From contig CASEWT010000004.1 of the NCBI GenBank assembly GCA_949291655.1, positions 1 to 50,041 of the forward strand: DNA of 50,041 nucleotides. Reading direction: 5' to 3'. The notes beneath the pieces were generated by a model. It worked only from the letters and a program-made list of their open reading frames with translations, was not told the DNA's origin and searched no databases. Numbering within the stretch: position 1 is the first letter of the stretch; the number at the start of each line of letters is the position of its first letter. Both the position numbers and the translations under genes were made by a program. Source of the DNA: an uncultured Bacillota bacterium. Its GTDB lineage: Bacteria; Bacillota_I; Bacilli_A; RFN20; CAG-826. Below are positions 4,849 to 36,633 of the stretch, one piece after another.

Positions 4849-4865
4849 TGTAAGCGCTTTATAAT
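4849..4865 (+). promoter_or_regulatory. cre-like palindrome overlapping a TATAAT -10 box upstream of fucO
   Basis: TGTAAGCGCTTTAT (4849-4862) matches the catabolite-responsive element pattern TGNAANCGNWNNCW except at one position. It overlaps a perfect TATAAT (4860-4865), placing it where a CcpA/LacI-type repressor would block RNA polymerase. No good -35 box is visible 16-18 bp upstream. Catabolite repression of fucO is inferred. Confidence 0.6.
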
Positions 4866-4895: not shown

Positions 4896-6044
4896 ATGGC
4901 CAACCGTTTCTGTCTAAACCCCGTTTCCTACCATGGCTATGGAGCCATCGACTCCATTCCGGTGGAAGCGAAAGCCCATCATTTCAAGAAGGCGCTCGTC
5001 TGCACCGATCCGGACCTCGTCAAATTCAAGGTCATCGATCACGTGACGAAGCTGCTCGAAGATAACAAGCTCGCATACGAAGTCTACGACGGCATCAAGC
5101 CGAACCCGACGATCGAGAACGTCAAAGACGGCGTCAAGGCCTTCGAGAATGCCTCGGCCGATTACATCATCGCCATCGGCGGCGGTTCCTCGATGGATAC
5201 GGCCAAGGCCATCGCCATCATTATCGCCAACCCCGAGTTCGCCGACGTCCGGAGCCTCGAAGGCGTGGCCCCGACCAAGAATCCCTGCGTCCCGATCTTC
5301 GCCGTCCCGACGACGGCCGGCACCGCGGCGGAAGTCACCATCAACTATGTCATCACCGACGAGGAAAAGCACCGGAAGTTCGTCTGCGTCGATCCCCACG
5401 ACATGCCGATCGTCGCCTTCGTCGACCCCCTCATGATGTCGACGATGCCGAAGGGCCTTACGGCCGCGACCGGGATGGACGCCATGACCCACGCCATCGA
5501 AGGCCTCATCACCAAGGGAGCCTGGGAGCTGAGCGACTGTCTCCACCTCGAAGCCATCAAGCTCGTCGCCAATAACCTCCGCTCCGCCTATAGGGGCGAG
5601 AAGGAAGGCCGGGAGGGGATGGCCCTCGCCGAATACGTCGCCGGCATGGGCTTCTCCAACGTCGGCCTCGGCATCGTCCACTCGATGGCCCACCCCTTGA
5701 GCGCCCTCTACGACACCCCCCACGGGGTTGCCTGCTCGATCCTCCTCCCGACCGGGATGGCCTATAACGCCGACTACACCGGCGAGAAGTACCGTGAACT
5801 CGCCAAGGCGATGGGCGTCGAAGGCGTCGAGAAGATGAGCCAGGAAGAATACCGGAAGGCCGCCATCGACGCGGTCCAGCAGCTCTCGATCGATGTCGGC
5901 ATCCCGACCTCCCTCAAGGGCATCGTCAAGGAAGAAGACCTTTCCTTCCTTGCCGATTCGGCCATGGCCGATGCCTGCATGCCGGGCAACCCCCGGACCC
6001 CGACCAAGGAAGAGGTCATCGCCCTTTACCGCTCCCTCATGTAA
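4896..6044 (+). CDS. fucO: Lactaldehyde reductase (iron-dependent 1,2-propanediol oxidoreductase)
   Basis: A 382-residue group III iron-containing alcohol dehydrogenase. The NAD-binding GGGSSMD motif is at residues 95-101, and metal ligands D195, H199, H262 and H276 fall at the E. coli FucO positions shifted by one. Length is the usual one. It reduces L-lactaldehyde to L-1,2-propanediol in the cytoplasm, the redox step needed after RhaD or FucA aldolase cleavage; the rhamnose genes lie ~22 kb to the right, so this gene likely serves them although it stands alone. Other alcohols are possible substrates. Start ATG 4896 follows a strong AAGGAGG, a cre-like site overlaps the promoter, and a clear terminator follows. 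Confidence 0.88.
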   Translation: MANRFCLNPVSYHGYGAIDSIPVEAKAHHFKKALVCTDPDLVKFKVIDHVTKLLEDNKLAYEVYDGIKPNPTIENVKDGVKAFENASADYIIAIGGGSSMDTAKAIAIIIANPEFADVRSLEGVAPTKNPCVPIFAVPTTAGTAAEVTINYVITDEEKHRKFVCVDPHDMPIVAFVDPLMMSTMPKGLTAATGMDAMTHAIEGLITKGAWELSDCLHLEAIKLVANNLRSAYRGEKEGREGMALAEYVAGMGFSNVGLGIVHSMAHPLSALYDTPHGVACSILLPTGMAYNADYTGEKYRELAKAMGVEGVEKMSQEEYRKAAIDAVQQLSIDVGIPTSLKGIVKEEDLSFLADSAMADACMPGNPRTPTKEEVIALYRSLM

Positions 6045-7156: not shown

Positions 7157-7290
7157 GATGATTCCTCCGAAGCTGATTATAGATGAGCTGAGCCAAGGAG
7201 GTTCGCCTTTTTTGACTTGTTTCAGCGCTTTTTCCGCGCTGGAGGCTCCGCGCGCGGTTTTGCTTACTTTTCGTCTTCGCGCGCCGCCCT

Positions 7291-7317: not shown

Positions 7318-7339
7318 AAAGGCGCTTAGGAGAAGCGTT

Positions 7340-10321
7340 ATGGACGTTCAGCGATTATTCGATATCTTGCGGGAACGCGGGGTGGCCCACCGGGGACTCC
7401 ACGGCCCTTTGGCTTACCAAAATTCCCCTTTGGCTTTCCGCTTGGCCAAGGAATGGGGCTATCCCTTCGAGACCGATGTCCATCTTTCCAAGGACGGGAA
7501 GCTTTATCTCAACCACGACCACGACCTGATTTACCAAGCCGGCGAAGAGGGCGTGATCGAGGAGATGAGCGAAGAAGAGATTTCCCGTTACCGCCTCCCC
7601 GACGGAGCGCCTCTATTGACCCTCGGGGAACTTCTATCCATGGTCGAGGGAGCGGTGCCGATCGTCATCGAGCTCAAGGCTTATAAAGGAAACGGACCCG
7701 AATTGGCTCGCAAGGTCAAAGCGGCCTTGGGTTCCTACCAAGGGCCGGCGGCGATCATTTCCTTCAATCAGGAAGCCCTCTTGGCCTACGGTCGGGGCCG
7801 CGAGCCGCTCGGCGCGCTCATCGGCGGGGACGAGCTCCCGAAGATGAGCGAAGAGGACTTCGCCAAGTTCGATTTCCTCGACGTAGCCTACCCCCTTCTC
7901 GACGATCGGAAAATCGCGAACTATCGCGCGAAGGGCGGCAAGGTCCTCTCCTGGACCATCCGCAACGAAGAGCAGCTTGCCCTCTCCCTCTCGAAGAGCG
8001 ATGCGGTGACCTTTGAGAATTTCCGTCCCTTCAAGGCAGGGGAAAGAGTGGAACCGGGCTATTACCCGGTTTCGATCGAGAACACGATGAACGGTTCGAT
8101 TGCCATGGCCGTCGACCTTCCCGATGATGCCCGCCTATTGGAAATTACCGGCGCGAGCGAATATCAGTGCTTCCTGAACGGGGATTTCCTCCTCTACGGT
8201 CCCGAACGGGGAGCCAAGGGGCGTTTCTACGTCGATGAGGCCTTCCTTCCGGGAAGCGGTCCCCGACGGCTTTCCGTCTTCCTGACCGGGAGCAACGCCA
8301 AAGGCTACGAACGGGTGAACGAAAAGCCCTTCCTTTTCTATCGAATCTACGACAAGCGAGGAAATATCCTCCGCAAAACCTCCTCGGACGACGGCGTTTA
8401 CGTTTCGCCTTTCCGCCTTCAGAAGGTCGCCCGCTTCTCTTACCAGCGGGCCTTCTCCGAGTCCTACCGGATGGATTATGATGCCTACAAGGCCTTCCGG
8501 ACCCCGGGGATGAGGATCGATCTTCCGAGTGAGCCCCTTGCTCAGGTCGGGGAAGTGAGCCTCTATGAGCGGCGGACCCACTATCCGCGCTACGAGCGCT
8601 ACGTTGGTACTCTTCTTGAAGGCGGACGCTTCGAGATCGATCCTTCCCTTCCGGTCTGGGACGACCGCTCGATGCACGCGCCGTTCCTTGGGATGTACGA
8701 AAAGAAAGACTGGGAGGTGGCTCCGAGCGACTATGTTTCCCAATGCGTTTATCGCCTGGGCTCGCCCAAGAATTCCCTCTCCAAAGGCGACTTCCTGACC
8801 TATGGCTTAGCAAAGAGTAAGACCGGCTTCCCGGTCCTCCGCCTCCGGGTCTACGACCATAGCGTCGTCGACATCGTCTTCGACGAGGCCGATACCGCGG
8901 AAGAGCCGGGTCCGATCGGCATCGATTTCAAGCGGAACGGGACGCACAATATCCTCCATTACGATCTCACACCGGGCACTTACGAGCTGACCGGCTTCAT
9001 CCCGGTGAGCGGCAAGTATTTCCGCTTGCTCGTGGAAGAAGGCTGGGTCGAGCCGCTGCCTGGCGCCTTTGAAGTGACTTCCCTCGAGAACCCCGACGCC
9101 ACCCGCCTGGCGGCTCGGATCGAGGATAGCGAACTGAGCCTCGTCTTCGAGGCGGCCCGCGAGTCGTTCCGGCAATGCGCGGTCGACGTCCTCATGGACT
9201 GCCCCTCGCGGGAACGGGCGGGCTGGCTTTGCGATACCTATTTCACCGCCCGGGCCGAGGCCCTTCTCACCGGGGAGAATGCCGTCGAGAAGGCGTTCCT
9301 CGACGATTATGCCCATTACGTCAATCTCGGCGACCAGCCGTCCAAGATGATCCCGATGTGCCATCCGAGCGATTATGGCGACCAGGGCTATATTCCGAAC
9401 TGGCCGATGTTCTATGTCCTCGAACTCCTCGAGGCCAAGAAGCGGAACGAACGGACCCTCGACTTAGAGGGGGCCTATCAGAAAATCGCCCCCTTCCTTG
9501 AGTGGTGCGAAAGCTTCCGCGACGAAGAGGGCTTCCTCGAGGATGTCGACGGGGTCGTCTTCGTCGAATGGAGCCACGCGAACGATCTAGAGAGCACCCG
9601 CGGGGTCAACTTCCCGACCAATATGCTCTATGCCCGCATGCTCGAGGCTCTTTCCGAGCTTTACCCGGAACGTCTCAGCTATCTGAAGGAACGGGCCCGC
9701 GGCCTGAGGAAAGCCATCATGGCCCTCGGCTACGATGGGAAGTGGTGGAACGACAACGCCCTTCGGGACGAGGAGGGAAACCTCGTCCTGACCGGCCGCG
9801 TGAGCGAGGTTACCCAGTACTACGCCTTCCATTTCGGCTTTGCCAGCAAGGAAAAGGACCCGGAACTCTATGAACGGGTCTTCTCCCTCCTCGGGCCGAA
9901 ACGGAACCCGAAAGTGAGCGAGGACGAGGTCTTCCCGGCCAACATGTTCATCGGCTACTATCTCCGCCTCTCGGCCCTTCTCAAAGAGGGCGAGTTCGAA
10001 AAGGCCATCGAGGAAGCCCGCCTCTACTTCGGGAAGATGGCCCTTCGGACCGGAACCCTTTGGGAATACGATTCCTATTTCGCCTCCTTGACCCACGGCT
10101 TCGCTTCCTTTGCGACGAACATCATCGTCGAGTGCCTGAGCGGCGTTTATCTCATCGACGAGGTTAAGAAAGTCGTGCATCGTCGGAAGGGGAAGCGGGT
10201 AGCAATCAAATGCCGCTTCGACATTCCGGTCGAGGGCGGGACTCGCTTCGTCACCTACGAGCGAAAAGAAAAGGGCGAAGCCCTCTTCTTGCCGGAAGGC
10301 TACGCCCTGGTCGATGATTGA
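7340..10321 (+). CDS. Cytoplasmic GDPD-GH78 fusion: glycerophosphodiesterase plus alpha-L-rhamnosidase-like domain
   Basis: A 993-residue protein with two enzymes in one chain and no signal peptide. Residues 1-235 form a glycerophosphodiester phosphodiesterase domain: AHRG (H17, R18), ExD (E44, D46), H59 and IELK (E111, K113). After beta-rich linker domains, a six-hairpin GH78-like domain follows: DCPSRER places D620 and E625, then D632, and TLWE gives E909. These match the spacing of the four acidic residues of Bacillus GH78 rhamnosidase (D567, E572, D579, E841). GDPDs split glycerophosphodiesters into glycerol-3-phosphate and an alcohol; GH78 releases terminal alpha-L-rhamnose. The fusion suggests a substrate carrying both groups. 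Start ATG 7340 has TAGGAG upstream. It converges on the GDPD lipoprotein gene with no gap. Confidence 0.82.
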   Translation: MDVQRLFDILRERGVAHRGLHGPLAYQNSPLAFRLAKEWGYPFETDVHLSKDGKLYLNHDHDLIYQAGEEGVIEEMSEEEISRYRLPDGAPLLTLGELLSMVEGAVPIVIELKAYKGNGPELARKVKAALGSYQGPAAIISFNQEALLAYGRGREPLGALIGGDELPKMSEEDFAKFDFLDVAYPLLDDRKIANYRAKGGKVLSWTIRNEEQLALSLSKSDAVTFENFRPFKAGERVEPGYYPVSIENTMNGSIAMAVDLPDDARLLEITGASEYQCFLNGDFLLYGPERGAKGRFYVDEAFLPGSGPRRLSVFLTGSNAKGYERVNEKPFLFYRIYDKRGNILRKTSSDDGVYVSPFRLQKVARFSYQRAFSESYRMDYDAYKAFRTPGMRIDLPSEPLAQVGEVSLYERRTHYPRYERYVGTLLEGGRFEIDPSLPVWDDRSMHAPFLGMYEKKDWEVAPSDYVSQCVYRLGSPKNSLSKGDFLTYGLAKSKTGFPVLRLRVYDHSVVDIVFDEADTAEEPGPIGIDFKRNGTHNILHYDLTPGTYELTGFIPVSGKYFRLLVEEGWVEPLPGAFEVTSLENPDATRLAARIEDSELSLVFEAARESFRQCAVDVLMDCPSRERAGWLCDTYFTARAEALLTGENAVEKAFLDDYAHYVNLGDQPSKMIPMCHPSDYGDQGYIPNWPMFYVLELLEAKKRNERTLDLEGAYQKIAPFLEWCESFRDEEGFLEDVDGVVFVEWSHANDLESTRGVNFPTNMLYARMLEALSELYPERLSYLKERARGLRKAIMALGYDGKWWNDNALRDEEGNLVLTGRVSEVTQYYAFHFGFASKEKDPELYERVFSLLGPKRNPKVSEDEVFPANMFIGYYLRLSALLKEGEFEKAIEEARLYFGKMALRTGTLWEYDSYFASLTHGFASFATNIIVECLSGVYLIDEVKKVVHRRKGKRVAIKCRFDIPVEGGTRFVTYERKEKGEALFLPEGYALVDD

Positions 10322-12220
10322 TCAGGCTCCGTAAACCGATTCTTCAAGGCTTTCTGGGACGACCAGGGAGCCTTTTTCTTCGTACTGTCTTTGATAATCT
10401 TTGGAGGCACCGAGATCGCCGTTGCCGATGGTTACGGCCTGACTGTAGAGACCGTGGGAGAGAGATTCGTCGTAGTAGTAGAAGGTGCCGGTGAGATACT
10501 GGTCGGTTGCAACGTCACCCTCGAGGAGAATGAAGGTTGCTTCTACTTCCTTGGAAGTGCCGCCATAGGTGACGGCCGGGCACGATGAGAGAGTCTTCAT
10601 GTCGCCAATGGAGTTCAGAAAGATGTACGGCTCGGGCGCAAGTCTGGCTACCACCTCTTGGCTCGTTTCGGCGACATCGGTCGTGACGATGTTGGAGGCA
10701 TTTGAGAAGTTACTCTGATCCTCATACGTGTAGCTGTTGATTGGATAGCCGCGGGCTTCCAACTTATAGCTATTCGCTAGGAGCATCGTTTCGAGCGAGT
10801 AGTCGCATCCCCATTGGTATTTTCGTAGGTAGTCAGTCATGCCTTCGGGATCGCTGGGTCCTACGTATTCCATGTAATACTTGTCGCCATGGCCGATGGA
10901 AGCAAGCGGCATCCAAGGGGAGTATTGCCGCGCCTCCATGGCATAGAAAGGATAGTAAGTAATTCCAATCACCTGTTTTTCCATGCCGGTTTTGCGGACG
11001 ATTTCGTTCACATATTGCAATGGTTCCTTGGCAAGGGCCTTGTCGCTGCACCAATCGATCTTAAACTCCAGCATGAAGACCAGATCAGTTCCTTTGGCCG
11101 CGAGGAGAGCTTCTTCGAGAGTTGGAATCTTGTTGCCGACATCAACACCGTTGTCGTTGAGTCGATAGTCTTTCATTTCGTCCCAGTCGTAGTCGATGAA
11201 GCGGTCAGCCTTGGACGGACAATCGTCGCTGAAATAGCCGGGGGAGTCGTCGTGGCAGACCACAATAACGTTGTCCCGGGTAATCTGAAGGTCGATTTCG
11301 ACGTGGGTTGCCCCGACCTTTTCGGCATCGAGGATGGACGGAATTGAGTTTTGGTTGTACTTGCCAGGCGTCGTCAAACCGCGGTGAGCAGAGATGAATT
11401 GCTTCCTCGTCCGACCCATCTTGTCCATCTTGGCGTACAAAGCATTAAGATCCGACACATTTTCAGTCATGACCCCGTACGCTCCCGAGCAAATTGCCCG
11501 GCTAAGGTGATCTTCGGTTTTGACCCAAGTTGATTTGAAACGAGCGTTTAACCACTCGACGGCTTCTTCCAACTTGGCGTTTTCTTCGCCAAGGATGATC
11601 GTATCGGCTGAATCGATGGTTGATAGGGCCGAGGCAACATAGTAATCGTCGGCGTTGCTGAGGTCATAGGAACTCGCGTCAAAGGCCAGGTAGAAGCTTT
11701 TTGCAAAAGTATCCTCGCTGGCCCTTTTGAGGACTTCCGGATCGGACGAAACGAGATAAGAATCCTTGATCAGGGTGTTGGACCGGATGCCAGCTAGATA
11801 GAGGTCCAAGGCTTTTTGCGATTCTATTTTGATGCCAGGAATGGTCTCTACTTTATAGAGAACGGTGAGGTAGACAGTGAAAAAGTCCTCGCCTTTGCTC
11901 CCATCTCCAAAGACGACATTCAAATCGTCGTCAACTGTGAGGATGGTGACGGTTGGGAGGCTCTTTCCCTGAAGGACCGACGACAAGGACGCGGCATTGG
12001 CTGGCTCGAAGACACTGATCGGCTCGTTAAGCAAGCCGGTCGACTTGGCACGGACATTTGCAAAATCATCTACGGTCATCCCCGTTACCTCGTCTGGCAG
12101 ATCGAGTTGGCTCAGAGAAGAACTTGAGGAATCACTTTCGGAAGCGGTAGTAGGACCGCAAGATACGAGGACTCCGCTTAGCAGCGCAAAACAGGAAACC
12201 ATCCGAAGGGCATTTTTCAT
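10322..12220 (-). CDS. Lipoprotein with tandem GDPD domains, first one degenerate
   Basis: A 632-residue surface lipoprotein: a signal peptide ends in a lipobox LVSC (C21), followed by a Ser-rich spacer. The C-terminal GDPD domain begins near residue 278 with SAHRG, then HVEIDLQITRDN, CHDD and FMLEFK, the normal catalytic set. The preceding region (about 60-275) keeps GDPD-like strands, including SSDPEVLKRA and an end 'GAYGVMTENVSDLNALY' resembling 'GVDGIITDRPDLL', but lacks the catalytic His and acids, so it is probably a decayed tandem copy. A C-terminal ~80-residue beta domain is unrecognised. It would cleave glycerophosphodiesters outside the cell. SD AATGGAGG precedes the ATG. The upstream gap holds an ATTTTTGCTCA motif like those before the sugar operon. 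Confidence 0.78.
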   Translation of the reverse strand: MKNALRMVSCFALLSGVLVSCGPTTASESDSSSSSLSQLDLPDEVTGMTVDDFANVRAKSTGLLNEPISVFEPANAASLSSVLQGKSLPTVTILTVDDDLNVVFGDGSKGEDFFTVYLTVLYKVETIPGIKIESQKALDLYLAGIRSNTLIKDSYLVSSDPEVLKRASEDTFAKSFYLAFDASSYDLSNADDYYVASALSTIDSADTIILGEENAKLEEAVEWLNARFKSTWVKTEDHLSRAICSGAYGVMTENVSDLNALYAKMDKMGRTRKQFISAHRGLTTPGKYNQNSIPSILDAEKVGATHVEIDLQITRDNVIVVCHDDSPGYFSDDCPSKADRFIDYDWDEMKDYRLNDNGVDVGNKIPTLEEALLAAKGTDLVFMLEFKIDWCSDKALAKEPLQYVNEIVRKTGMEKQVIGITYYPFYAMEARQYSPWMPLASIGHGDKYYMEYVGPSDPEGMTDYLRKYQWGCDYSLETMLLANSYKLEARGYPINSYTYEDQSNFSNASNIVTTDVAETSQEVVARLAPEPYIFLNSIGDMKTLSSCPAVTYGGTSKEVEATFILLEGDVATDQYLTGTFYYYDESLSHGLYSQAVTIGNGDLGASKDYQRQYEEKGSLVVPESLEESVYGA

Positions 12221-12368: not shown

Positions 12369-13133
12369 CTAATCAGCGACTATGAGCTCGACGTTGGCTC
12401 TAAGCAGCGCCTCTTTGTAATCCTCGCTTGGCTCTTTGTCCGTAATGAGAACATCGATGTCGGCTATGGCGCAATCGCTTGAAAGAAGAGTGCGGTTGAA
12501 CTTCGTATGATCAACCAGGCAAACCAGCTTTCGGGCCCTGGAAGCCATCGCTGCTTTGACCCTTTGCTGCTCGATTGTTCCTTCGTTGGGGCCGGCTTCA
12601 AGTGAAAAACCGCGGCAAGAAAAGAAAAAGGCATCAACGTAAAAACGAGATACAAATTGAACGGTGTCAGGACCGACAGCCGAACAGACATTGCTCGAGA
12701 TGATTCCCGGGGCCATATATGAGGAAAAATTAACAAAATTTGATAAAGACGTGGCATTATCAAAGCCATTAGTTATTACAGTAATGTCAGTAAAATGTTT
12801 CAAAAGCGGGATTACTTGGCCAACAGTCGTAGACGAATCAAAGAAATAACTTTCGCCTTCGTGAAAATATTTAAGCGCTGATTGCGCAATTCTTTTCTTT
12901 TCGAGAACGTTCGTTTTTCGACGGATAAGAGTAGAAACTTCTCCGGTATTCGGAGCCAGCACGGATGCGCCCCCGCGAACCCTCTTAATCAGGCCGGCAT
13001 TAGCTAAATCAGCGAGGTCGCGTCGGATGGTTGCTGGCGAGGCATATACCAGCTTGGCAAGCTCTTCGACCGATATATAGGTTCTTTCGCTGGTGATGCT
13101 TAGGATCTCCTGTTTTCTTTCGTCGATTAACAT
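12369..13133 (-). CDS. DeoR-family transcriptional regulator of the rhamnose locus
   Basis: A 254-residue protein of typical DeoR length. The N-terminal winged helix is clear (RKQEILSITSERTYISVEEL, then SPATIRRDLADLANAGLIKRVRGGA), followed by the DeoR sensor domain: FFDSSTTVGQVIPLL, ITVITNG, FFSCRGFS and KLVCLVDHTKF. DeoR sensors are related to sugar-phosphate isomerases and usually bind a phosphorylated sugar. The gene is divergent from the SGNH/ABC/rhamnose operon, so it most likely controls that operon and perhaps the GDPD lipoprotein; rhamnulose-1-phosphate is a reasonable inducer, but this is inference. The base composition here is more A/T-rich than its neighbours. No clear SD precedes ATG 13133 beyond a weak purine stretch. 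Confidence 0.85.
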   Translation of the reverse strand: MLIDERKQEILSITSERTYISVEELAKLVYASPATIRRDLADLANAGLIKRVRGGASVLAPNTGEVSTLIRRKTNVLEKKRIAQSALKYFHEGESYFFDSSTTVGQVIPLLKHFTDITVITNGFDNATSLSNFVNFSSYMAPGIISSNVCSAVGPDTVQFVSRFYVDAFFFSCRGFSLEAGPNEGTIEQQRVKAAMASRARKLVCLVDHTKFNRTLLSSDCAIADIDVLITDKEPSEDYKEALLRANVELIVAD

Positions 13134-13239: not shown

Positions 13240-13253
13240 TGAAAGCGCTTTAC
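13240..13253 (+). promoter_or_regulatory. cre-like palindrome upstream of the sugar operon
   Basis: TGAAAGCGCTTTAC shares the AAAGCGCTTT core of CcpA-type operators and matches TGNAANCGNWNNCW at all but one position. It lies immediately before, and touches, the ACGGAGG ribosome-binding site of ATG 13265, so it would act within the 5' untranslated region as a roadblock. Confidence 0.55.
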
Positions 13254-13264
13254 GGAGGAAGCGT

Positions 13265-14557
13265 ATGTCATTTGGACGAAACAAAGCGTGGAAGGCTGGC
13301 AGTCTTGGACTAGTCCTAGCCTCGGCTGGTTTGGCTCTTGCCGCGTGTGAAACTACTACCGTCAGTTCTTCAAGCAATGCCGAGATTTCTTCGGAGAACG
13401 GACAGGTTTTTGATCCGAGTGACTTCCCTAATTACGTGGAAGATATTGATTCACTTGAATACGACTATGAGGTCAATGATCCGAAAGTGAGCGACCCGTT
13501 CTTTTACGGCAACGTTATTTACAACGAAACGGTCATGCTCCGTACCCAAGAAGATGGTACGGGCCTTGGGCATCTTCGCTTCACCCCGACCAAGATCATT
13601 TCCATTCGTGACTTCACTTTGACTACCGAATACACGGAAGGAAGCGACTACGTTATCGACGGAAATGCCATCAGCGCCCCAACCGGCAGCCGTATCGGCC
13701 ACTGGACCAATCGCCAGATGTGGGGCGAAGAGGACCTTCCTGATCCGTACGTTATCAAGGACACCTTGTCCAATCGCGATACCGATTGCATGAGGATGGG
13801 CGCGACGATCTACACGGAATCGCCTTTCTACTATGGCACGCAGGTATATGTCACCTACGCCTATGACATCAATGATCTTGATTTGGAATCGCTCCCTAGC
13901 TCCCAGATTGAGAAGATGCCAAGCCTTAAAGTCAAGCTTGAAGCCAAAGCCGGAACGATCAAGATTGCCGGCATCGGCGATAGTGTCATGGAAGGCTGCT
14001 CTTCGTCAGTCAATTTCGATCATGAACCCTATCAAAAACCATTCTTTGATCTATTTGGCGAAGCGATTGCGCATAAATACGGCCTTGAGGTGACTTCCGA
14101 AAACATGGGCGTGGGTGGAACGACGTCAGCCGACGGAACCCAAAAGTCCTTGCTCGACAAGGTGGTCAAATACGCTCCTGACCTCCTGCTTGTTCATTAT
14201 GGGATTAACGATCTCGGCGGTAGGACGACCCCAAACGGCTACATGGACAACATCCTTTACATCGTCACCTATCTCAAGGAGAACCTCCCCGATCTCGAAA
14301 TCATCCTCATGGCGCCTCTTTCCCCCAATCCCCGTGTCTATGACCAGATGTGGCTCGAGTCGTACGTCAACAAACTCGAAGACGTGGCGGAAAGCTTCAC
14401 CGGCGTCGTTGTCTTGGACACCTACGCCTACGGTAACTATCTCCTGGAAAACGGCCGGGACTATTACGACATGACCGGAAATGGCATCAACCATCCTAAC
14501 GATTATGGACACCGCGTTTACACCGGTGCCCTCCTCGCCACCATTGAAAATGCTTGA
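13265..14557 (+). CDS. Lipoprotein SGNH/GDSL-family esterase
   Basis: A 430-residue lipoprotein: lipobox LAAC with C28, an acidic/Ser-rich spacer, an N-terminal beta domain of ~190 residues, then an SGNH hydrolase domain. The four SGNH blocks are present: GIGDS with nucleophile S240, GVGGT, GIND with N315, and HPNDYGH with D413 and H416. These enzymes remove acyl groups, commonly acetyl esters, from polysaccharides at the cell surface. As the first gene of the operon with an ABC importer and rhamnosidases, deacetylation of the imported glycan before glycosidase attack is the likely role. Strong ACGGAGG ribosome-binding site; a cre-like palindrome and DeoR-type repeats lie upstream. Confidence 0.82.
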   Translation: MSFGRNKAWKAGSLGLVLASAGLALAACETTTVSSSSNAEISSENGQVFDPSDFPNYVEDIDSLEYDYEVNDPKVSDPFFYGNVIYNETVMLRTQEDGTGLGHLRFTPTKIISIRDFTLTTEYTEGSDYVIDGNAISAPTGSRIGHWTNRQMWGEEDLPDPYVIKDTLSNRDTDCMRMGATIYTESPFYYGTQVYVTYAYDINDLDLESLPSSQIEKMPSLKVKLEAKAGTIKIAGIGDSVMEGCSSSVNFDHEPYQKPFFDLFGEAIAHKYGLEVTSENMGVGGTTSADGTQKSLLDKVVKYAPDLLLVHYGINDLGGRTTPNGYMDNILYIVTYLKENLPDLEIILMAPLSPNPRVYDQMWLESYVNKLEDVAESFTGVVVLDTYAYGNYLLENGRDYYDMTGNGINHPNDYGHRVYTGALLATIENA

Positions 14558-14576
14558 TAAAGGAGGTTTTACCAAA

Positions 14577-15956
14577 ATGAAAGCAAGCAAGAAGAAAGTC
14601 GTGGTCGGAGGCTTACTAGCGGCCTTCGCCCTCACCGGGTGTGTCATTGCCCCGACCGTTGGAACGTCCTCGTCTGTCAGCATCGAGTCTGTCGAGATCG
14701 GTGTCGATCCTTCCATCAGTGAATCACTAAAGCTCCTTATCCCGTCGGGAAACAGCAACGAGCAGACGATGATTGAGAAAGCCAACGAGGCTTTCAACCT
14801 TCTTTATCCGAACGTCACCTTTGACATCAACTTCGTGTCAATCCCCACCTATGAGTCGACCATCCGTCAATTCAACATGGCCGACGACATGCCTGATGTC
14901 ATCTGGACTAACTCCCAGGAAGTCTACTTCCTCCGTTCTCTTGGCGCGATCGATCCTCTCAATCAGTACATCGAGCAGTCGGAAGCCCGCGGCGACTATA
15001 ACTTCGAAGAGGACTTCAAGACCGAGTTCTTCGACATGGCTGGCGATAACGGAACGTATTACGCCGTTCCGCGGAGCGCCGATACCGTCGTTTGCTTCTA
15101 TAACAAGAAACTCCTCAACCAAGCTGGGATCTCGATGGATAAGATCCAGAACGGTTGGAGTTGGGAAGACTTCATCGATCTTTGCTCCCAGTGGCGGTCC
15201 TATGCCGACAAGCAAGGCCACAGCGACTGGTATTGCTGCGACTTCAACTTCTCCTGGTCTTCTGTTTATTACCCGTTCATTCGCAGCTACGGTGCTGACA
15301 TCTTCTCGGCTAAGGATACCGTTGGTGTCGATACCCCGGAGATGAGAGAAGCACTAACGGCCATCCGCCAGCTCGTCGACGATCACTATTGCGTCGGCAG
15401 CGGCGTCACCTCGGGCTCGAGCTTCGAAAGCGGAACTTGCCCCTTCATTTTCCAGTCGGCCGCCATCTCTCACTATGACGAGATGCGCGAACTCAAGGGC
15501 AACATTGACATCGTCACCTTCCCGTTCATCAACGGCCAAGAGAACGCCAAGATCGGGGCTGGCGTCGCCGGTTATTCGCTCTGCACGAAGTCCAAGAAGA
15601 AAGCTCTCGCCTGGGAATATCTCAACTTCCTCATGAGCTATGATGGCCAGCAGGCTCTCGCCACCGGCGGTCTCAATCTCCCGTCCATTCGTAACGACCT
15701 TGCGGATCCCGATAACGCCGAAGCCAATTGGACGAAGGGCTACACCGATCGGAATCTCGAAGCCTATGTCCTATACGACGAGAAGAAAATCGCCGATGAT
15801 TATTATGCCTATTGCGATCCGAGTGCGATGGCTAATGTTACCCTCGCCCTCAGCGACGTGATGGATAACACGCTTTCGACCCGCGAAAATCGGCGCAACA
15901 TCGACGATATCATCTCTCGCGCCGTTAGCGACCTCAATGACGCCGTCGGCAAGTAA
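14577..15956 (+). CDS. ABC sugar transporter substrate-binding lipoprotein
   Basis: A 459-residue family 1 extracellular solute-binding protein. The signal peptide ends in a lipobox ALTGC (C22), followed by a Ser-rich linker. Family features include an early LLIPSGNS strand, DDMPDVIWTNS, 'YYAVPRSADTVVCFYNKKLL' typical of this family's YAVP...YYNKxLF region, NGWSWEDFIDLC and 'KKALAWEYLNFLMSYDGQQAL'. It captures an oligosaccharide for the two permeases that follow. The ATG 14577 has AAAGGAGG 11 nt upstream and begins 20 nt after the esterase stop. Specificity for rhamnose-containing oligosaccharides is inferred from the operon. No ABC ATPase is encoded here; a shared MsmK/MsiK-type ATPase elsewhere is expected. 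Confidence 0.88.
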   Translation: MKASKKKVVVGGLLAAFALTGCVIAPTVGTSSSVSIESVEIGVDPSISESLKLLIPSGNSNEQTMIEKANEAFNLLYPNVTFDINFVSIPTYESTIRQFNMADDMPDVIWTNSQEVYFLRSLGAIDPLNQYIEQSEARGDYNFEEDFKTEFFDMAGDNGTYYAVPRSADTVVCFYNKKLLNQAGISMDKIQNGWSWEDFIDLCSQWRSYADKQGHSDWYCCDFNFSWSSVYYPFIRSYGADIFSAKDTVGVDTPEMREALTAIRQLVDDHYCVGSGVTSGSSFESGTCPFIFQSAAISHYDEMRELKGNIDIVTFPFINGQENAKIGAGVAGYSLCTKSKKKALAWEYLNFLMSYDGQQALATGGLNLPSIRNDLADPDNAEANWTKGYTDRNLEAYVLYDEKKIADDYYAYCDPSAMANVTLALSDVMDNTLSTRENRRNIDDIISRAVSDLNDAVGK

Positions 15957-16005: not shown

Positions 16006-17007
16006 ATGTCAACTGTCGATGCAACGAAGGACAAGGCATCCTTTTGGTCCGGCCTCAAAGGGCGCATCGCGGAGATCCTCCCTGCCAAAAAAGGCAGGAA
16101 GGACCCCGGTTCGTTCCGCCCCAAGATGAGCCGGATGAAGAAAAAGGAAGCATTGGCCGGTTGGGTGTGCGTAACGCCCCTTCTAATCGGCTTGGCCCTC
16201 TTCACGGCCGTTCCGATGTTCTGTTCGCTCTTCTGGAGCTTCTTCCATTACGACGGATTCACGCTTTCGCCAGCCGGGTTCTGGAACTTCGTTCAGGCGT
16301 TCCAGGACCCCGAAGTCGGTGCTAGCGCCCTCAATACCTTCATTTATGCGATCGTCAACGTGCCGTTGAATTTGATCCTTAGCTATTTCTTGGCCTTGCT
16401 TGTGAACAATGCCCACAAATTCACCAGGGTCTTCCGGGTCCTCTTCTACCTCCCGGTTGTCATTCCGGCTGTTGTTAGCGGTCTTCTTTGGAAGGACATC
16501 TTCGACAATACCTATGGCATCTTCAACAAAATCCTCACCAGCATTGGCCTCGAACCGTTCCCCTTCTTCATGGATTCGAGAACGGCCATGTTCTCCCTCA
16601 TTCTCATGGGTCTATGGGGTGTCGGTGGCGGCATGATCCTCTGGCTCAGCGCTTTCAAGAACATCCCGAAGGACCTCTACGAATCCGCCAAGGTCGACGG
16701 AGCCAACGCTATCCAGCGTTTTGCCCACATAACCATTCCGATGTCGACCCCGATTATCTTCTTCAACCTTGTTACGAGCGTCATCGGCTCTCTCCAGTAC
16801 AACGGGACCCTCATCTTCGCCCCGCGTGACGGCCGAGGCATCGACGATTCCCTCTTCCTCTTCGGCGTCAAGATCTACTGGGAAGCCATCAGGGTCGGTG
16901 ACATCGGGTATGCCAGTGCCCTGAGCTGGATGCTTTGCATCGTTATCTCGCTCCTTACCGCCCTTCTCTTTACCACTTCGAAGTGGGTCTTCTACGGAGG
17001 CGATTGA
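16006..17007 (+). CDS. ABC sugar transporter permease (MalF/UgpA type)
   Basis: A 333-residue membrane protein with a ~45-residue basic cytoplasmic N-terminus and six transmembrane segments, the first being VCVTPLLIGLALFTAVPMF. The EAA loop that contacts the ABC ATPase is 'ESAKVDGANAIQRFAHITIP' near residues 226-245. It is the first of the permease pair and starts 49 nt after the solute-binding gene, with only a weak AGG before ATG 16006. It forms the import channel with the next gene product. Confidence 0.88.
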   Translation: MSTVDATKDKASFWSGLKGRIAEILPAKKGRKDPGSFRPKMSRMKKKEALAGWVCVTPLLIGLALFTAVPMFCSLFWSFFHYDGFTLSPAGFWNFVQAFQDPEVGASALNTFIYAIVNVPLNLILSYFLALLVNNAHKFTRVFRVLFYLPVVIPAVVSGLLWKDIFDNTYGIFNKILTSIGLEPFPFFMDSRTAMFSLILMGLWGVGGGMILWLSAFKNIPKDLYESAKVDGANAIQRFAHITIPMSTPIIFFNLVTSVIGSLQYNGTLIFAPRDGRGIDDSLFLFGVKIYWEAIRVGDIGYASALSWMLCIVISLLTALLFTTSKWVFYGGD

Positions 17008-17008
17008 T

Positions 17009-17932
17009 ATGACTTGGAGCGAATTTAAAAATCGCCTGACCGGTGAGTCCTTCGTCGAGGATCGGAAGGCCAAAATCTGGGACTTTAGCAAGACGACCGC
17101 CCTCTTCGTGGGGATGTGCATCGTCGGGGTCGTTCTCATGTTCCCGTACATCTTCATGGTGTTCAAATCACTCATGTCGGAAGCGGAAATCCTTGACCCA
17201 AATCCCCATTTCTTCCCCGACTGGTCGAATCTCCAGTTCAGCAACTTCGTCACTCTCTTCACCGATGCGAGCTCCGGTTACAACTATGCCGAGGCGCTCC
17301 TCCATACGATGATCATCATCTGCTTCAACGTTGTTGCCATCCCCCTTTCTGCGACCTTTATCGCTTATGGTTTCTCCAAACTTAAGTGGAAGGGCAGAAA
17401 CATCGTCTTTGCCGCGATGATGCTAACGGTCACCCTCCCGGGTGTCGTCACCCAGATTCCGCTTTACGTCATCTACTCGAAGATCGGCTGGCTCAACACT
17501 CTTTACCCCTTCACCATCCCGAACCTCTTCGGCGGCGGTGCCATGTACATCTTCCTCATTAGGCAGTACATGTTCGGTATCCCGAACGAGCTATGCGACG
17601 CGGCTAAGATCGACGGCTGTGGGCCGTTCCGCATTTATTGGTCGGTCATTCTGCCCAATTGCAAGTCCATCATCATTTACATCATCATCTCCGTCTTCAA
17701 TTCCTATTGGGGCGACTACTACGGCCCGCTTCTTTACATGCCTGCCTCCGACGCTCCGATTCCATTCGCTTATGCCATTTTCAAGAGCACAGTCGAAGGT
17801 CTCGCCTCGACGCGGTGGGCCGCGGTAAGGATGGCAGGGGGAGTCTTCATGACTTTCTTCCCGACGCTTCTCTTCATCATCTTCCAAGAGCAGCTGACCG
17901 ACGGCGCCTTGACAAGCGGTATCAAGGGGTAA
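17009..17932 (+). CDS. ABC sugar transporter permease (MalG/UgpE type)
   Basis: A 307-residue permease with six transmembrane segments; the first is TALFVGMCIVGVVLMFPYIF. The EAA loop 'CDAAKIDGCGPFRIYWSVIL' is at about residues 197-216, followed by LPNCKS. It is separated from the MalF-type partner by a single base and would form the heterodimeric channel with it, delivering oligosaccharide to the cytoplasmic GH78 enzymes. The typical C-terminal 'GLTSGALKG' motif of MalG-like proteins is represented by GALTSGIKG. Confidence 0.88.
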   Translation: MTWSEFKNRLTGESFVEDRKAKIWDFSKTTALFVGMCIVGVVLMFPYIFMVFKSLMSEAEILDPNPHFFPDWSNLQFSNFVTLFTDASSGYNYAEALLHTMIIICFNVVAIPLSATFIAYGFSKLKWKGRNIVFAAMMLTVTLPGVVTQIPLYVIYSKIGWLNTLYPFTIPNLFGGGAMYIFLIRQYMFGIPNELCDAAKIDGCGPFRIYWSVILPNCKSIIIYIIISVFNSYWGDYYGPLLYMPASDAPIPFAYAIFKSTVEGLASTRWAAVRMAGGVFMTFFPTLLFIIFQEQLTDGALTSGIKG

Positions 17933-17936
17933 AAAC

Positions 17937-19799
17937 ATGGAATCAAAAATTAAGCAAATCGTATTGCCCGGGGCCTTCCTCCTCTCGCTTTGCCTTCTTG
18001 CTTCATGCGGCCCGAGCGAGGTTCCCGATCCTTATGAACGGGTCGAAGACGAACGGACGCTCACTGATGAGCAGTGGACCGTCAATAGTCTGGCTTCGAC
18101 CGATGCCTTCGGACGCTCATTCTCTTCTGTTTCGACTGCCAACCCATCCAAAGAAGTAGGCATCTTCTACTCCCTTTGGCACGGGTCGCACGAGACCGGA
18201 ATCTACGACGTCACCCTCCTCAAAGAAGTCAATCCCGATGCCCTTTGGGACGTTAGTAGCGGCAATGGGCAGCCAACCGACAGCCCTCTAGGGGCGTTCC
18301 ATTACTTCGGCCGCCCGCTCTATGGCTATTACGACAGTCGCGATCCTTGGGTTTTGACAAGGCATTGCGAACTTTTCGCAATGGCCGGCATCGACTACAT
18401 CGTCTTCGATACTACCAATAGCGTCATCTACACCGATGCCGTCAAAGCCTTGATCGAAGTCTTCCGGAAATACGCCGCCCAGGGCTTCGAGGTTCCGAAG
18501 CTGGCCTTCTATACCAATTCGCATAGCCAGATTACCGTCGACTCCCTCTATAGCATCTGGTACAAGGACGGGCTTTACGACGACGTCTGGTACAAAATCG
18601 ACGGCAAGCCGATGCTCGTCACCAACAAAGACGAGTTCACCGATTACGACAAACTCGACTTCTATGAAGAATTCTTCACTTTAAAGGGCAGCCAATGGCC
18701 CGATGAACGGATGAGAAAGGAGAACTTCCCTTGGATGAATTGGGAATGGCCCCAGTTCAACCACGACGGCATCATGTCCGTTTCCATCGCTCAGATGCCA
18801 GGCTACAACGCAGCAAACCAAGAGATTGGCAATTTCGGCCGCGGATACACTCGGGTCACCGAGGGATACAAGACCGGCGCTCAAAACGTCGACGAGTATC
18901 AAAAGGGACTGAACTTCGAAGAAGAGTGGCGGACAGCCCTCGACCCGGAGCTTTCTGGAGGAGAAGTCAACAATGTCTTCATTACTCAATGGAACGAGTG
19001 GATGGCCATCAAGAACCGCGCCAACAACGGCGACATGCAGATGGTCGACGGCTTTGATCTCGTTTATAGCCGCGATGCCGAAATGACGGATAGCGAAACT
19101 GGTTATGGAGACGGGTTTTACCTGCAACTCGCCCGTAACTTGCGCAAATTCGCCTATAACGACGGCGAGCATTACTTCCTCGATCCCCATACGATCGCCA
19201 TCGGCGAGAACGATAAGACCTGGGACGAGGTCAAGCATTCCTACCGCGATTTCCAAGGCGATGCCATGTTCCGAAACTTCAAAAACGCGGCGGGATCGCC
19301 TTCGGCCTACGGCTACGAAATGTACGAGGACCTGACGGCCCGCAATGACATCGTGTCCACCAAGGTTACCCACGACAACGACAACATCTATGTCCGGGTC
19401 GAAACCGCCGAAGAGCTTGTTTTGAGCAGCGGCGATGAAAGTTGGATGAACCTCTTCATCGGGACGCCCGACATCGATGGGCGGACTCCTTTTGCCGAAA
19501 CCTTCGATTACCGGATCATGCCGGACAGCACCGAAGGCAGCATGGCCATCGCCCGCTACGCCGAAACAGATAGCGGTGACAAGACCTGGGCGAAGACCGA
19601 TCAACGCGCCAAGGTGAGCTTTGACGGCAATGTGGTGGAATACCAAATCCCTCGTTCTGCCATTGGCGTTGGAAACCGGGTCCCGCACCTTCTTCTCAAG
19701 GCGACCGACCACCTGACCGACCCCCTGGACATCGACGACTTTTACGTGAGCGGCGATTCCGCTCCGATTGGGAGGCTCGCCTATGAATACGCCTACTAA
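17937..19799 (+). CDS. GH71/GH99-like glycosidase lipoprotein with C-terminal CBM9/DOMON-like domain (copy A)
   Basis: A 620-residue lipoprotein, lipobox LASC with C24. The N-terminal ~400 residues resemble the GH71/GH99-like clan of TIM-barrel proteins: VGIFYSLWHG, GRPLYGYYDSRDPWVL, AGIDYIVFDTTN and a strand ending WNEW (E354). In GH99 the motif is NEWxxE with two Glu residues; here the second is Ala, so the mechanism may differ. The C-terminal ~190 residues (ARNDIVSTKVTHDNDNIYVRVE) resemble a CBM9/DOMON sugar-binding domain. It likely attacks the imported glycan at the cell surface; substrate unknown. It follows the permease by 4 nt and the next gene, a paralogue, overlaps its end, showing a tandem duplication. 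Confidence 0.7.
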   Translation: MESKIKQIVLPGAFLLSLCLLASCGPSEVPDPYERVEDERTLTDEQWTVNSLASTDAFGRSFSSVSTANPSKEVGIFYSLWHGSHETGIYDVTLLKEVNPDALWDVSSGNGQPTDSPLGAFHYFGRPLYGYYDSRDPWVLTRHCELFAMAGIDYIVFDTTNSVIYTDAVKALIEVFRKYAAQGFEVPKLAFYTNSHSQITVDSLYSIWYKDGLYDDVWYKIDGKPMLVTNKDEFTDYDKLDFYEEFFTLKGSQWPDERMRKENFPWMNWEWPQFNHDGIMSVSIAQMPGYNAANQEIGNFGRGYTRVTEGYKTGAQNVDEYQKGLNFEEEWRTALDPELSGGEVNNVFITQWNEWMAIKNRANNGDMQMVDGFDLVYSRDAEMTDSETGYGDGFYLQLARNLRKFAYNDGEHYFLDPHTIAIGENDKTWDEVKHSYRDFQGDAMFRNFKNAAGSPSAYGYEMYEDLTARNDIVSTKVTHDNDNIYVRVETAEELVLSSGDESWMNLFIGTPDIDGRTPFAETFDYRIMPDSTEGSMAIARYAETDSGDKTWAKTDQRAKVSFDGNVVEYQIPRSAIGVGNRVPHLLLKATDHLTDPLDIDDFYVSGDSAPIGRLAYEYAY

Positions 19800-21702
19800 A
19801 GCCCTCTTCGCCTGCCTTTCCATCATGGTTCTTGCTTCTTGTGAATCGGGAGGATCTTCCAGCATGCCGACTTCTGAAAAGCTGAACGTCACCTACGATC
19901 AAGGCCTTCCGCTCGACGAGCGGCAGTTAACTGACGTCGAGTTCTCGCAGCTTCAGCTCGAGGGCATCGACGAGGTCGGGCGCAAGGTTCTGCCGATGGG
20001 TTCGTTCAAAGACGGTGAGCACCATGTCGGCCTCTTCTACCATATCTGGCTCGGCCAGCACGACTACGATTTCCGCGGCAATACCGGGCCGCGCGATATC
20101 GATAAGCTTCTTTCCACCGAGGAAGGGCGGGCCGCCCTTTATAGCGAGGACGATCCGATGTCCCCAAACGGCCGTTTCCATACCTGGGGCAAACCGCTTT
20201 ATGGCTATTACAATTCGGCCGACCCTTGGGTCATTAGGAAGCACCTCGAGCTTTTCGCGAACTGCGGAGTCGATTATCTCTGCTTTGATGCGACCAACAA
20301 CGTGATTTACCAGGATGTCGTTCCCAATATCCTGAACGCTATCCTCTATTACCAGGCCCAGGGCATTAAAGTTCCACAGGTCATGTTCTATACGAATACC
20401 GCCTCTGGCCAGACGGTACAGATGATCTTCAATGCCTACTACACCCATCCTGAATGGGAGAGCTGTTGGTGGGCGCCGAACGGCAAGCCTCGGATTGTCG
20501 GCATTACCGAAAACAACGGCAAAGCCAGCGACCAGACAATGTACGAGGGAAAAAACCCTGTCATGTCTGAAGACATGATTGCCTACTTCGACGTTCTTGA
20601 AAGCCAATGGCCGAACGGGATGTACAACGAGAACGGCCAACCCTGGATGAGTTGGAGCCGGGCACCTGGTGGCGCCATGTCGCAAGCGGGGATGACTTAT
20701 GGCTACCCCCAGAAAATCCATAACGGCCACATTGCCGTTCCGGTTGCCCAGCATAACCACGACCTTATCTGCTATTCCCTCGAAGGAGCCGAGTCGGCAC
20801 GGGGCTATAACCCGGAGACCGACAAGAAAGAGGGCGATTGGAAGGAAGGCCTGGCCTTCCAGAAGATGTTCGACACGGCTCTCGACCCCAACAACAAAGT
20901 GACCGACGTCTTCGTCACCGGCTGGAACGAGTGGCAGGCCATCAAGCAGTGGGACGGCACGAATATCGGCTACGGGGGCGACAAGGGCATCTACTTCGTC
21001 GATACCTGGAACCACGAATACAGCCGCGACCTTGAAATGATGGAAGGCGGCTATGGTGACAACTACTACATGCAGTTCGTCATGAATACCCGGGCCTACA
21101 AGATGAACGAATACGTCGAATACGCCCATGAGCGCAAGACGATCGACATCAACGACTTCTCCTCTTCGGCCTGGGACGGGATCACCCGTTCCTATGTCGA
21201 TCCGACCGGGGACTGTGAGGACCGCGACTTCATCGGCATTACCGTGCCGGCCTATTACACCGACCAATCGGGGCGCAACGACATTGCCTCCGTCCGGGTA
21301 ACCAACGATGGGAACAAGGCTTACTTCCGCATCGAATGCGCTAGCGACATCGAGCTTGGCAACAGCGGCGATGCCCTTACCCTCCTGCTCGGAAAAGAAG
21401 CGGACGGCAACGGCTTCATGGGCGCCTACGAGTACCGGATTGGCGCGCGTAAGGCTGACGGCAAAGCTTCGCTTGAGCGCTATGAGAACGGCACCTGGAC
21501 CGAAATTACTTCCGACATCGAATACGCCGTTGACGGAAGCGTGATGCAACTATCCGTTTCCTTGTCTCCATTGGGCCTTTCGGGCGACCGGGCCAGCTTC
21601 GTTTTCAAGGTATACGACAACGTAGCCGATCCCGACGATCCGATGAGTTACTACCAGAGCGGAGACGTCATGCCGCTAGGGCGGCTTGGCTACCGCTATT
21701 GA
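19783..21702 (+). CDS. GH71/GH99-like glycosidase lipoprotein with C-terminal CBM9/DOMON-like domain (copy B)
   Basis: A 639-residue paralogue of the preceding gene. ATG 19783 lies inside the end of copy A (overlap 17 bp) and has GGGAGG 7 nt upstream. The lipobox LASC gives C20. Matching landmarks are GLFYHIWLG, GKPLYGYYNSADPWVI, CGVDYLCFDATN and WNEW with E383; the residue three after E383 is again Ala rather than the second Glu of GH99. The C-terminal sugar-binding-like domain is present (RNDIASVRVTNDGNKAYFRIE). Copies A and B are clearly diverged rather than recent duplicates, so they may act on different linkages or ends of the same polymer. Enzyme activity is inferred. Confidence 0.7.
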   Translation: MNTPTKALFACLSIMVLASCESGGSSSMPTSEKLNVTYDQGLPLDERQLTDVEFSQLQLEGIDEVGRKVLPMGSFKDGEHHVGLFYHIWLGQHDYDFRGNTGPRDIDKLLSTEEGRAALYSEDDPMSPNGRFHTWGKPLYGYYNSADPWVIRKHLELFANCGVDYLCFDATNNVIYQDVVPNILNAILYYQAQGIKVPQVMFYTNTASGQTVQMIFNAYYTHPEWESCWWAPNGKPRIVGITENNGKASDQTMYEGKNPVMSEDMIAYFDVLESQWPNGMYNENGQPWMSWSRAPGGAMSQAGMTYGYPQKIHNGHIAVPVAQHNHDLICYSLEGAESARGYNPETDKKEGDWKEGLAFQKMFDTALDPNNKVTDVFVTGWNEWQAIKQWDGTNIGYGGDKGIYFVDTWNHEYSRDLEMMEGGYGDNYYMQFVMNTRAYKMNEYVEYAHERKTIDINDFSSSAWDGITRSYVDPTGDCEDRDFIGITVPAYYTDQSGRNDIASVRVTNDGNKAYFRIECASDIELGNSGDALTLLLGKEADGNGFMGAYEYRIGARKADGKASLERYENGTWTEITSDIEYAVDGSVMQLSVSLSPLGLSGDRASFVFKVYDNVADPDDPMSYYQSGDVMPLGRLGYRY

Positions 21703-28391: not shown

Positions 28392-29204
28392 ATGGGAAAC
28401 ATTCTTGAGTGCCGTTCGATCGGCCAATATCTCTCCATCATCGACAACATGTACCGCCTCGGATGGGACGAGCGGAACGGCGGGAACGTCTCAATGCTCC
28501 TCTCCGCGGAAGAGGTCGCCTCCTACGTCCCGAAGGAGACCATCCGGGATATTCCCCTCCCGATCGTCGCCGACGAAATCCTCCGGGGCAGGACCCTAGC
28601 CATCACCCGGACCGGCGGCTATTTCCGGAACACCAAAGGCGATCCCCGCCATAACGTCGGCATCATCACCATCTCCGACGACGGGCGGAGCGCCCACCTC
28701 CATTGGGGCTTCGAGGGCGAGGGCTCCTTCACGAGCGAAGTCTATGCCCACCTCATGTGCCATGCGACCCGCCTCAAGGTCAACCCGCGGAACCGGGTCG
28801 TCATGCACACCCACCCGACGAACCTCTTGACCCTCACCCACCTCGTGAAGCTTGACGAGAAGGAACTCACCTTGGCCCTCTGGCGGACGATGACCGAGTC
28901 GATCGTCGTCTTCCCCGAAGGGGTAGGGGTCCTTCCCTGGATGCTTTGCGGGACCAACGAGATCGGCGTCGCGACGGCCGAGAAGATGAAGGAATTTCGG
29001 GTCGTCGTCTGGTCGCTCCACGGGGTCTACGGCTCCGGGGAAACGATCGACGAGGCGTTCGGCCTCATCGAGACCGTCGAGAAGGCCGCCCAGATCATGA
29101 TGGGCGAGCTCGGGCACAAGGTGCTCAACGACATCGACGACGAGGGGCTGAAGGCCATCGCCGACCACTTCGGCCTCGTTCCCCATCCTGGCTACCTCAA
29201 ATGA
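28392..29204 (+). CDS. rhaD: Rhamnulose-1-phosphate aldolase
   Basis: A 270-residue class II aldolase. Zinc ligands H139, H141 (VVMHTHPTN) and H210 (SLHGVYG) match E. coli RhaD H141/H143/H212 shifted by two; the N-terminal 'WDERNGGNVSMLL' is the phosphate-binding GGN region. It cleaves L-rhamnulose-1-phosphate to dihydroxyacetone phosphate and L-lactaldehyde; the latter is the substrate of FucO encoded at the left of the window. GAAGGAA precedes ATG 28392. Its stop overlaps rhaB start (ATGA). Confidence 0.95.
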   Translation: MGNILECRSIGQYLSIIDNMYRLGWDERNGGNVSMLLSAEEVASYVPKETIRDIPLPIVADEILRGRTLAITRTGGYFRNTKGDPRHNVGIITISDDGRSAHLHWGFEGEGSFTSEVYAHLMCHATRLKVNPRNRVVMHTHPTNLLTLTHLVKLDEKELTLALWRTMTESIVVFPEGVGVLPWMLCGTNEIGVATAEKMKEFRVVVWSLHGVYGSGETIDEAFGLIETVEKAAQIMMGELGHKVLNDIDDEGLKAIADHFGLVPHPGYLK

Positions 29205-36626: not shown

Positions 36627-36633
36627 TTTGCAT

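Follow-up and report, generated by a model that had tools for sequence, protein, structure and literature searches.

The open reading frame at positions 7340–10321 (+) of the window, which is the whole 50,041-nt stretch of DNA analysed here, encodes a 993-residue protein in which an N-terminal GDPD domain is followed by a C-terminal GH78 part of the RhaB (2OKX) type. The frame is open throughout, and neither half of the fusion departs from its family in any feature open to testing. We infer the catalysis, localisation, order of steps and substrate, and propose, with a probability only slightly above one half (about 0.52), that the protein is a cytosolic bifunctional hydrolase for the sequential processing of imported rhamnosides bearing a glycerophosphodiester.

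The mechanically called frame begins earlier, at a TTG at 7217. However, we favour the ATG at 7340 as the start codon, because the ribosome-binding site AGGAG and a conserved TATACT hexamer precede it. In each of the four fusion orthologues, the hexamer lies 21–25 nt before the start codon; a sigma-70 scan requiring a −35 element found no site. By inspection, no signal peptide was recognised in the fusion, which is taken to be cytosolic on the basis of its sequence, and the GDPD and GH78 halves are apparently joined without a flexible linker.

A preliminary description had listed nine catalytic residues in the single chain (H17, E44, D46, H59 and E111 of GDPD, and D620, E625, D632 and E909 of GH78), and each was found at its assigned position. 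The domain search it suggested placed both PF03009 and Bac_rhamnosid6H (PF17389) above their curated Pfam cut-offs, and an NCBIfam search with the fusion returned nothing over any curated cut-off. The GDPD match covers residues 17–213 (E = 7e-11, 43.1 bits against a cut-off of 23.6), and the sequence profile matches the T. tengcongensis GDPD 2PZ0 with E = 4.7e-30. The five GDPD residues align with H17, E44, D46, H59 and E119 of 2PZ0; by homology, H17 and H59 would be catalytic, and E44, D46 and E111 would be metal ligands. The two histidines and three acidic ligands do not vary among the four fusions and the aligned stand-alone GDPDs. The TIM-barrel fold is supported by Foldseek and VIA, which both matched many GDPD entries (Z up to 27.8; 22–28 for the N-terminal part in VIA-align). 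The stand-alone GDPDs 2PZ0, 3QVQ, 2OTD and GlpQ (5T91) have the same barrel (Z 24–28) and the same histidines and acidic ligands, whereas they have no glycosidase joined to them; in the EN motif, the stand-alone copies compared carry Glu where the fusion has Gln. Sequence and model together suggest that this half would hydrolyse glycerophosphodiesters.

In the second half, the PF17389 match is confined to residues 598–773 (E = 1.4e-12, 48 bits against a cut-off of 24.5). The GH78 part matches RhaB of Bacillus sp. GL1 (2OKX) with a profile E of 2e-20, and residues 235–993 superimpose on it with Z 36.2 over 716 aligned residues at 3.2 Å (VIA-align), which places this half in GH78 and not, as had been considered, in another six-hairpin family. 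Through this match, the model is also predicted to adopt the multi-domain fold of GH78, with an (α/α)6 barrel and flanking β domains. D620, E625 and D632 align directly, and with the same spacing, with D567, E572 and D579 of RhaB, which, together with E841, are reported to be crucial for hydrolysis (PMC12524486). E909 sits in an invariant T-x-W-E motif, and was matched via the equivalent motif of 3CIH and not directly to E841. The GH78 catalytic residues are invariant across 17 homologues. On the other hand, RhaB lacks a GDPD domain and shares only ~17% identity with the fusion in the structural alignment. The GH78 half would release L-rhamnose from α-rhamnosides, the evidence for this being the rhamnose locus in which it lies.

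The preliminary description had asked for a structure prediction of the whole chain. The AlphaFold2 model, built from a 28-sequence alignment, was confident, with a mean pLDDT of 89.5 and a pTM of 0.87; one weak loop, at residues 617–628 (pLDDT <50), bears two of the GH78 catalytic acids. By fold, the GH78 half was closest to RhaB (2OKX) and the N-terminal half to GDPDs, and the best long matches were all α-L-rhamnosidases. In agreement with the earlier claim, both catalytic sets are thus intact in one chain, as judged by residue position and by alignment to 2PZ0 and 2OKX, and both sites are predicted to be active from sequence and model.

Full-length orthologues of the window protein (genome G000) were found in G002, G012 and G019, with 92, 73 and 66% identity, respectively. 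The junction is gapless and in the same frame in all four species, which belong to one genus. Since the same gapless junction recurs in three further species, the fusion is not a product of chance or mis-joining, and its presence in four separate MAGs ruled out an assembly or frame artefact. Across the four species, dN/dS was 0.10–0.21 for the GDPD part and 0.07–0.19 for the six-hairpin part where estimable, with a maximum of ~0.31 over all sections of the chain. Both halves are under purifying selection.

The fusion occurs in 4 of the 279 genomes of the order, and no further example was found in the class and phylum samples, so that a widespread distribution was ruled out. In a PF03009 survey of 245 genomes, four GDPD frames longer than 900 residues were among the matches listed, none of them with a GH78 domain. 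The concern that the fusion might be widespread and already characterised was not borne out by these searches. The preliminary description had also stated that no enzyme with this pairing is known to have been described. No paper on a GDPD–GH78 pairing was found in the open-licence literature, and the exact pairing appears to be undescribed, but the joining of a GDPD to a glycosidase is already known from a solved example, the β-1,3(4)-glucanase of Pedobacter terrae (7WW4/7WWC), a structure without an accompanying publication (PMC12448869). This protein has a GDPD-like domain at residues 3–224 of 480 (E = 7.4e-18, Z ~25) and was deposited as a glucanase, not as a GH78 enzyme, crystallised with a glucan ligand. 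A GDPD is also joined to PF06439 (3-keto-disaccharide hydrolase-like) in G053 and in three phylum-sample genomes (L085:43-2811, L086:2110-4887 and L087:1138-3975; ~920–945 residues). In contrast to the fusion, the three phylum-sample proteins have no GH78 and carry the GDPD toward the C-terminus.

In a GDPD tree, the fused domains form one supported clade (100/100), apart from the genome's own stand-alone GDPD, and the sister of this clade is a small group of stand-alone copies. The genome's stand-alone GDPD is therefore still present, because the fused copy belongs to a separate lineage. No rhamnose or GH78 neighbours of the closest stand-alone GDPDs (G016, G035, G036 and G100) were detected by similarity to the window proteins.

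Next to the fusion lies a gene for a lipoprotein GDPD with its catalytic residues present (H279, E308, D310, H323 and E385), and it is the next gene after the fusion in all four fusion genomes. Among 60 relatives, close homologues (50–65%) occur only in the three other fusion genomes; the next homologue is 28% identical and belongs to G017. The G017 relative (L083:1676-14332) is part of a glycan operon that also contains ABC permease, GH31, GH26-like, GlcNAc 2-epimerase and NAGPA phosphodiester glycosidase genes. Since the lipoprotein GDPD and fusion genes adjoin, their co-occurrence could reflect shared inheritance and not shared function. The ENS motif of the fused GDPD reads QNS; this Glu-to-Gln change in the EN(S/T) motif is common to the four fused GDPDs and extends to three of the four lipoprotein GDPDs (window 7340–8044 and 10322–12220; L022–L027), while stand-alone GDPDs keep the Glu (27 frames compared, some of them duplicates). 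The change common to both types is possibly a shared adaptation.

Table 1. Coordinates of the fusion gene and neighbouring features in the window
Feature	Position	Strand	Basis
TATACT, putative −10 element, 22 nt 5' of start codon	7312–7317	+	same hexamer in orthologues
AGGAG ribosome-binding site of fusion gene	7328–7332	+	sequence directly
GDPD domain of fusion (residues 1–235)	7340–8044	+	Pfam, alignments, fold search
GH78 (RhaB-type) part of fusion (residues 236–993)	8045–10318	+	Pfam, 2OKX profile match, fold match, invariant residues
TGTAAGCGCTTTA, cre-like site before lactaldehyde reductase gene	4849–4861	+	site search
Lactaldehyde reductase (FucO), upstream of fusion	4896–6044	+	NCBIfam equivalog over cut-off
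Lipoprotein GDPD (632 aa), convergent with fusion; lipobox LVSC	10322–12220	−	Pfam, motif positions
DeoR-family regulator	12369–13133	−	Pfam
TGAAAGCGCTTTA, cre-like site before GDSL–ABC operon	13240–13252	+	site search
GDSL esterase, lipoprotein-like leader	13265–14557	+	Pfam
ABC importer solute-binding protein; actual start codon probably a little downstream	14481–15956	+	Pfam
ABC importer, two permeases	16006–17932	+	Pfam
Two paralogous lipoproteins (620 and ~640 aa), GH71/GH99-like and CBM9-like domains	17937–21702	+	alignment; weak fold evidence
Surface protein, Big_2 domains, C-terminal membrane segment	21787–24612	+	Pfam, sequence
Second, canonical GH78 α-L-rhamnosidase	24645–27092	+	Pfam, three GH78 models
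L-rhamnose isomerase RhaA	27123–28382	+	Pfam, E 1.9e-140
Rhamnulose-1-phosphate aldolase RhaD	28392–29204	+	NCBIfam NF002963 over cut-off
Rhamnulokinase RhaB, open frame, kinase begins near 29210	28946–30508	+	best NCBIfam match rhamnulokinase, below cut-off; Pfam FGGY

The fusion lies beside what, as read from its genes, is a complete L-rhamnose locus, with RhaA, a rhamnulokinase (below its curated cut-off), RhaD and a sugar importer. The model of the 620-residue lipoprotein has low confidence (pLDDT 56), so its GH71/GH99 and CBM9 matches are suggestive at most, and an NCBIfam search with the two paralogous lipoproteins gave no match at all. Two copies of TGWAAGCGCTTTA, at 4849–4861 and 13240–13252 (0.23 expected), resemble catabolite-control sites; the strict cre consensus did not match the shared site, and neither a cre-like site nor another operator in common with the operon was found upstream of the fusion. 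Farther along the window, the 1919-residue protein at 36628–42387, with DUF4011, AAA_11/AAA_12 helicase and MTES_1575 nuclease-like domains, looks from these domains like a defence-type helicase–nuclease.

Between G000 and G002 (L025 and L084; window 4896–35028), the fusion, lactaldehyde reductase and RhaA are 88–98% identical, whereas identity falls to 39–83% from the lipoprotein GDPD through to the Big_2 protein; it looks as though the genes for surface and uptake functions were replaced and those for cytosolic enzymes kept.

Two congeners provide a comparison with unfused loci. The one-contig genome G029 has the GH78, DeoR, GDSL, importer, lipoprotein, Big_2 protein, second GH78 and RhaA/RhaD/RhaB genes in the same order as the window, but its first GH78 stands alone, and there is no neighbouring GDPD gene within the stretch examined. 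The locus of G014, syntenic for the regulator, the esterase, the importer and the lipoproteins, likewise has an unfused GH78 and no adjacent GDPD within the stretch examined. These two GH78 proteins are 41–45% identical to that of the fusion. The fused and lipoprotein GDPDs are therefore the main gene-level differences seen, and the simplest reading is that the fusion-bearing locus deals with a substrate carrying a phosphodiester, for which the plain locus is not equipped. In other genera, unfused GH78 relatives have right-handed β-helix, GH127-like and GH88-like genes as neighbours. In G270 (L079:16015-18077), several short frames matching the same GH78 subfamily lie near an intact copy, and appear to be what is left of a second copy that has decayed.

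When two genes are fused, their products often carry out two steps on one substrate. For the sequential processing that we propose, surface lipoproteins (the GH71/99-like endo-enzymes, the GDSL esterase and the second GDPD) would trim an α-linked, rhamnose-containing glycan bearing phosphodiesters, and its fragments would enter via the ABC importer. Inside the cell, the GDPD half would take off a phosphodiester group, either glycerol-phosphate or one like it, and the GH78 half, as an exo-α-L-rhamnosidase of the RhaB type, would free L-rhamnose, which RhaA, the rhamnulokinase RhaB, RhaD and lactaldehyde reductase would convert to dihydroxyacetone phosphate and propanediol. Among known glycans, rhamnans decorated with glycerol-phosphate, such as streptococcal wall polysaccharides, would fit as the substrate by analogy. 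It is established that α-rhamnan backbones of streptococci carry glycerol-phosphate (PMC11754754), and cleavage of wall teichoic acids has been reported for GDPD domains on phage tails (PMC10194240); together with the contrast between the fused and plain loci, these observations led to the proposal. A difficulty for this scheme is that removal of the phosphodiester by the outer GDPD would make the inner GDPD superfluous, unless its target is a different linkage. The more specific version, in which one cytosolic enzyme and the surface GDPD are dedicated to glycerol-phosphate rhamnans of the streptococcal type and let their hosts feed on the wall polysaccharides of other bacteria, with the two sites acting in turn on a single imported fragment and the Glu-to-Gln change of both GDPDs, which are only distantly related, as an adaptation to this substrate, seems unlikely to hold in all its parts.

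The two activities might instead be unrelated, the GDPD half being a generic cytosolic glycerophosphodiesterase (acting, for example, on deacylated phospholipids) that was tethered by gene fusion and shares no substrate with the rhamnosidase. Most relatives indeed retain a stand-alone GDPD that belongs broadly to this family, distant from the rhamnose genes where examined, and the fusion gene is preceded by a promoter-like element of its own, without the cre-like site that the operon has. However, the fused lineage is separate from the genome's own stand-alone GDPD, the fusion has been kept under strong purifying selection in four species, and it always lies within the rhamnose locus and accompanies the lipoprotein GDPD; we therefore regard this explanation as rather improbable.

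It is also conceivable, at long odds, that the GH78-fold half acts on a sugar other than L-rhamnose and that the fusion handles a different phosphodiester glycan. The ~17% identity to RhaB would allow this, and substrates may vary within the GH78 subfamily, because its unfused relatives in other genera adjoin the β-helix, GH127- and GH88-like genes. Nevertheless, the window locus encodes RhaA, RhaB, RhaD and lactaldehyde reductase, the long fold matches point uniformly to α-L-rhamnosidases, and the catalytic acids of RhaB are conserved. A catalytically dead GDPD half, serving the rhamnosidase as a binding or spacing module, is very improbable: despite the QNS in all four fused copies, as against Glu in the 27 stand-alone frames (some duplicates), none of these copies has lost either histidine or any of the three metal ligands, and dN/dS of the GDPD part resembles that of the remaining chain.

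Under the preferred reading of sequential processing, the fusion predicts a glycan in which rhamnose occurs together with a glycerophosphodiester, as is known for rhamnans of bacterial cell walls. G000 and G029 form a natural pair of loci with and without the fusion, which makes the idea of a shared substrate directly testable. If true, a single enzyme would be able to strip two decorations from wall polymers, and small-genome bacteria would have a specific route to harvest them.
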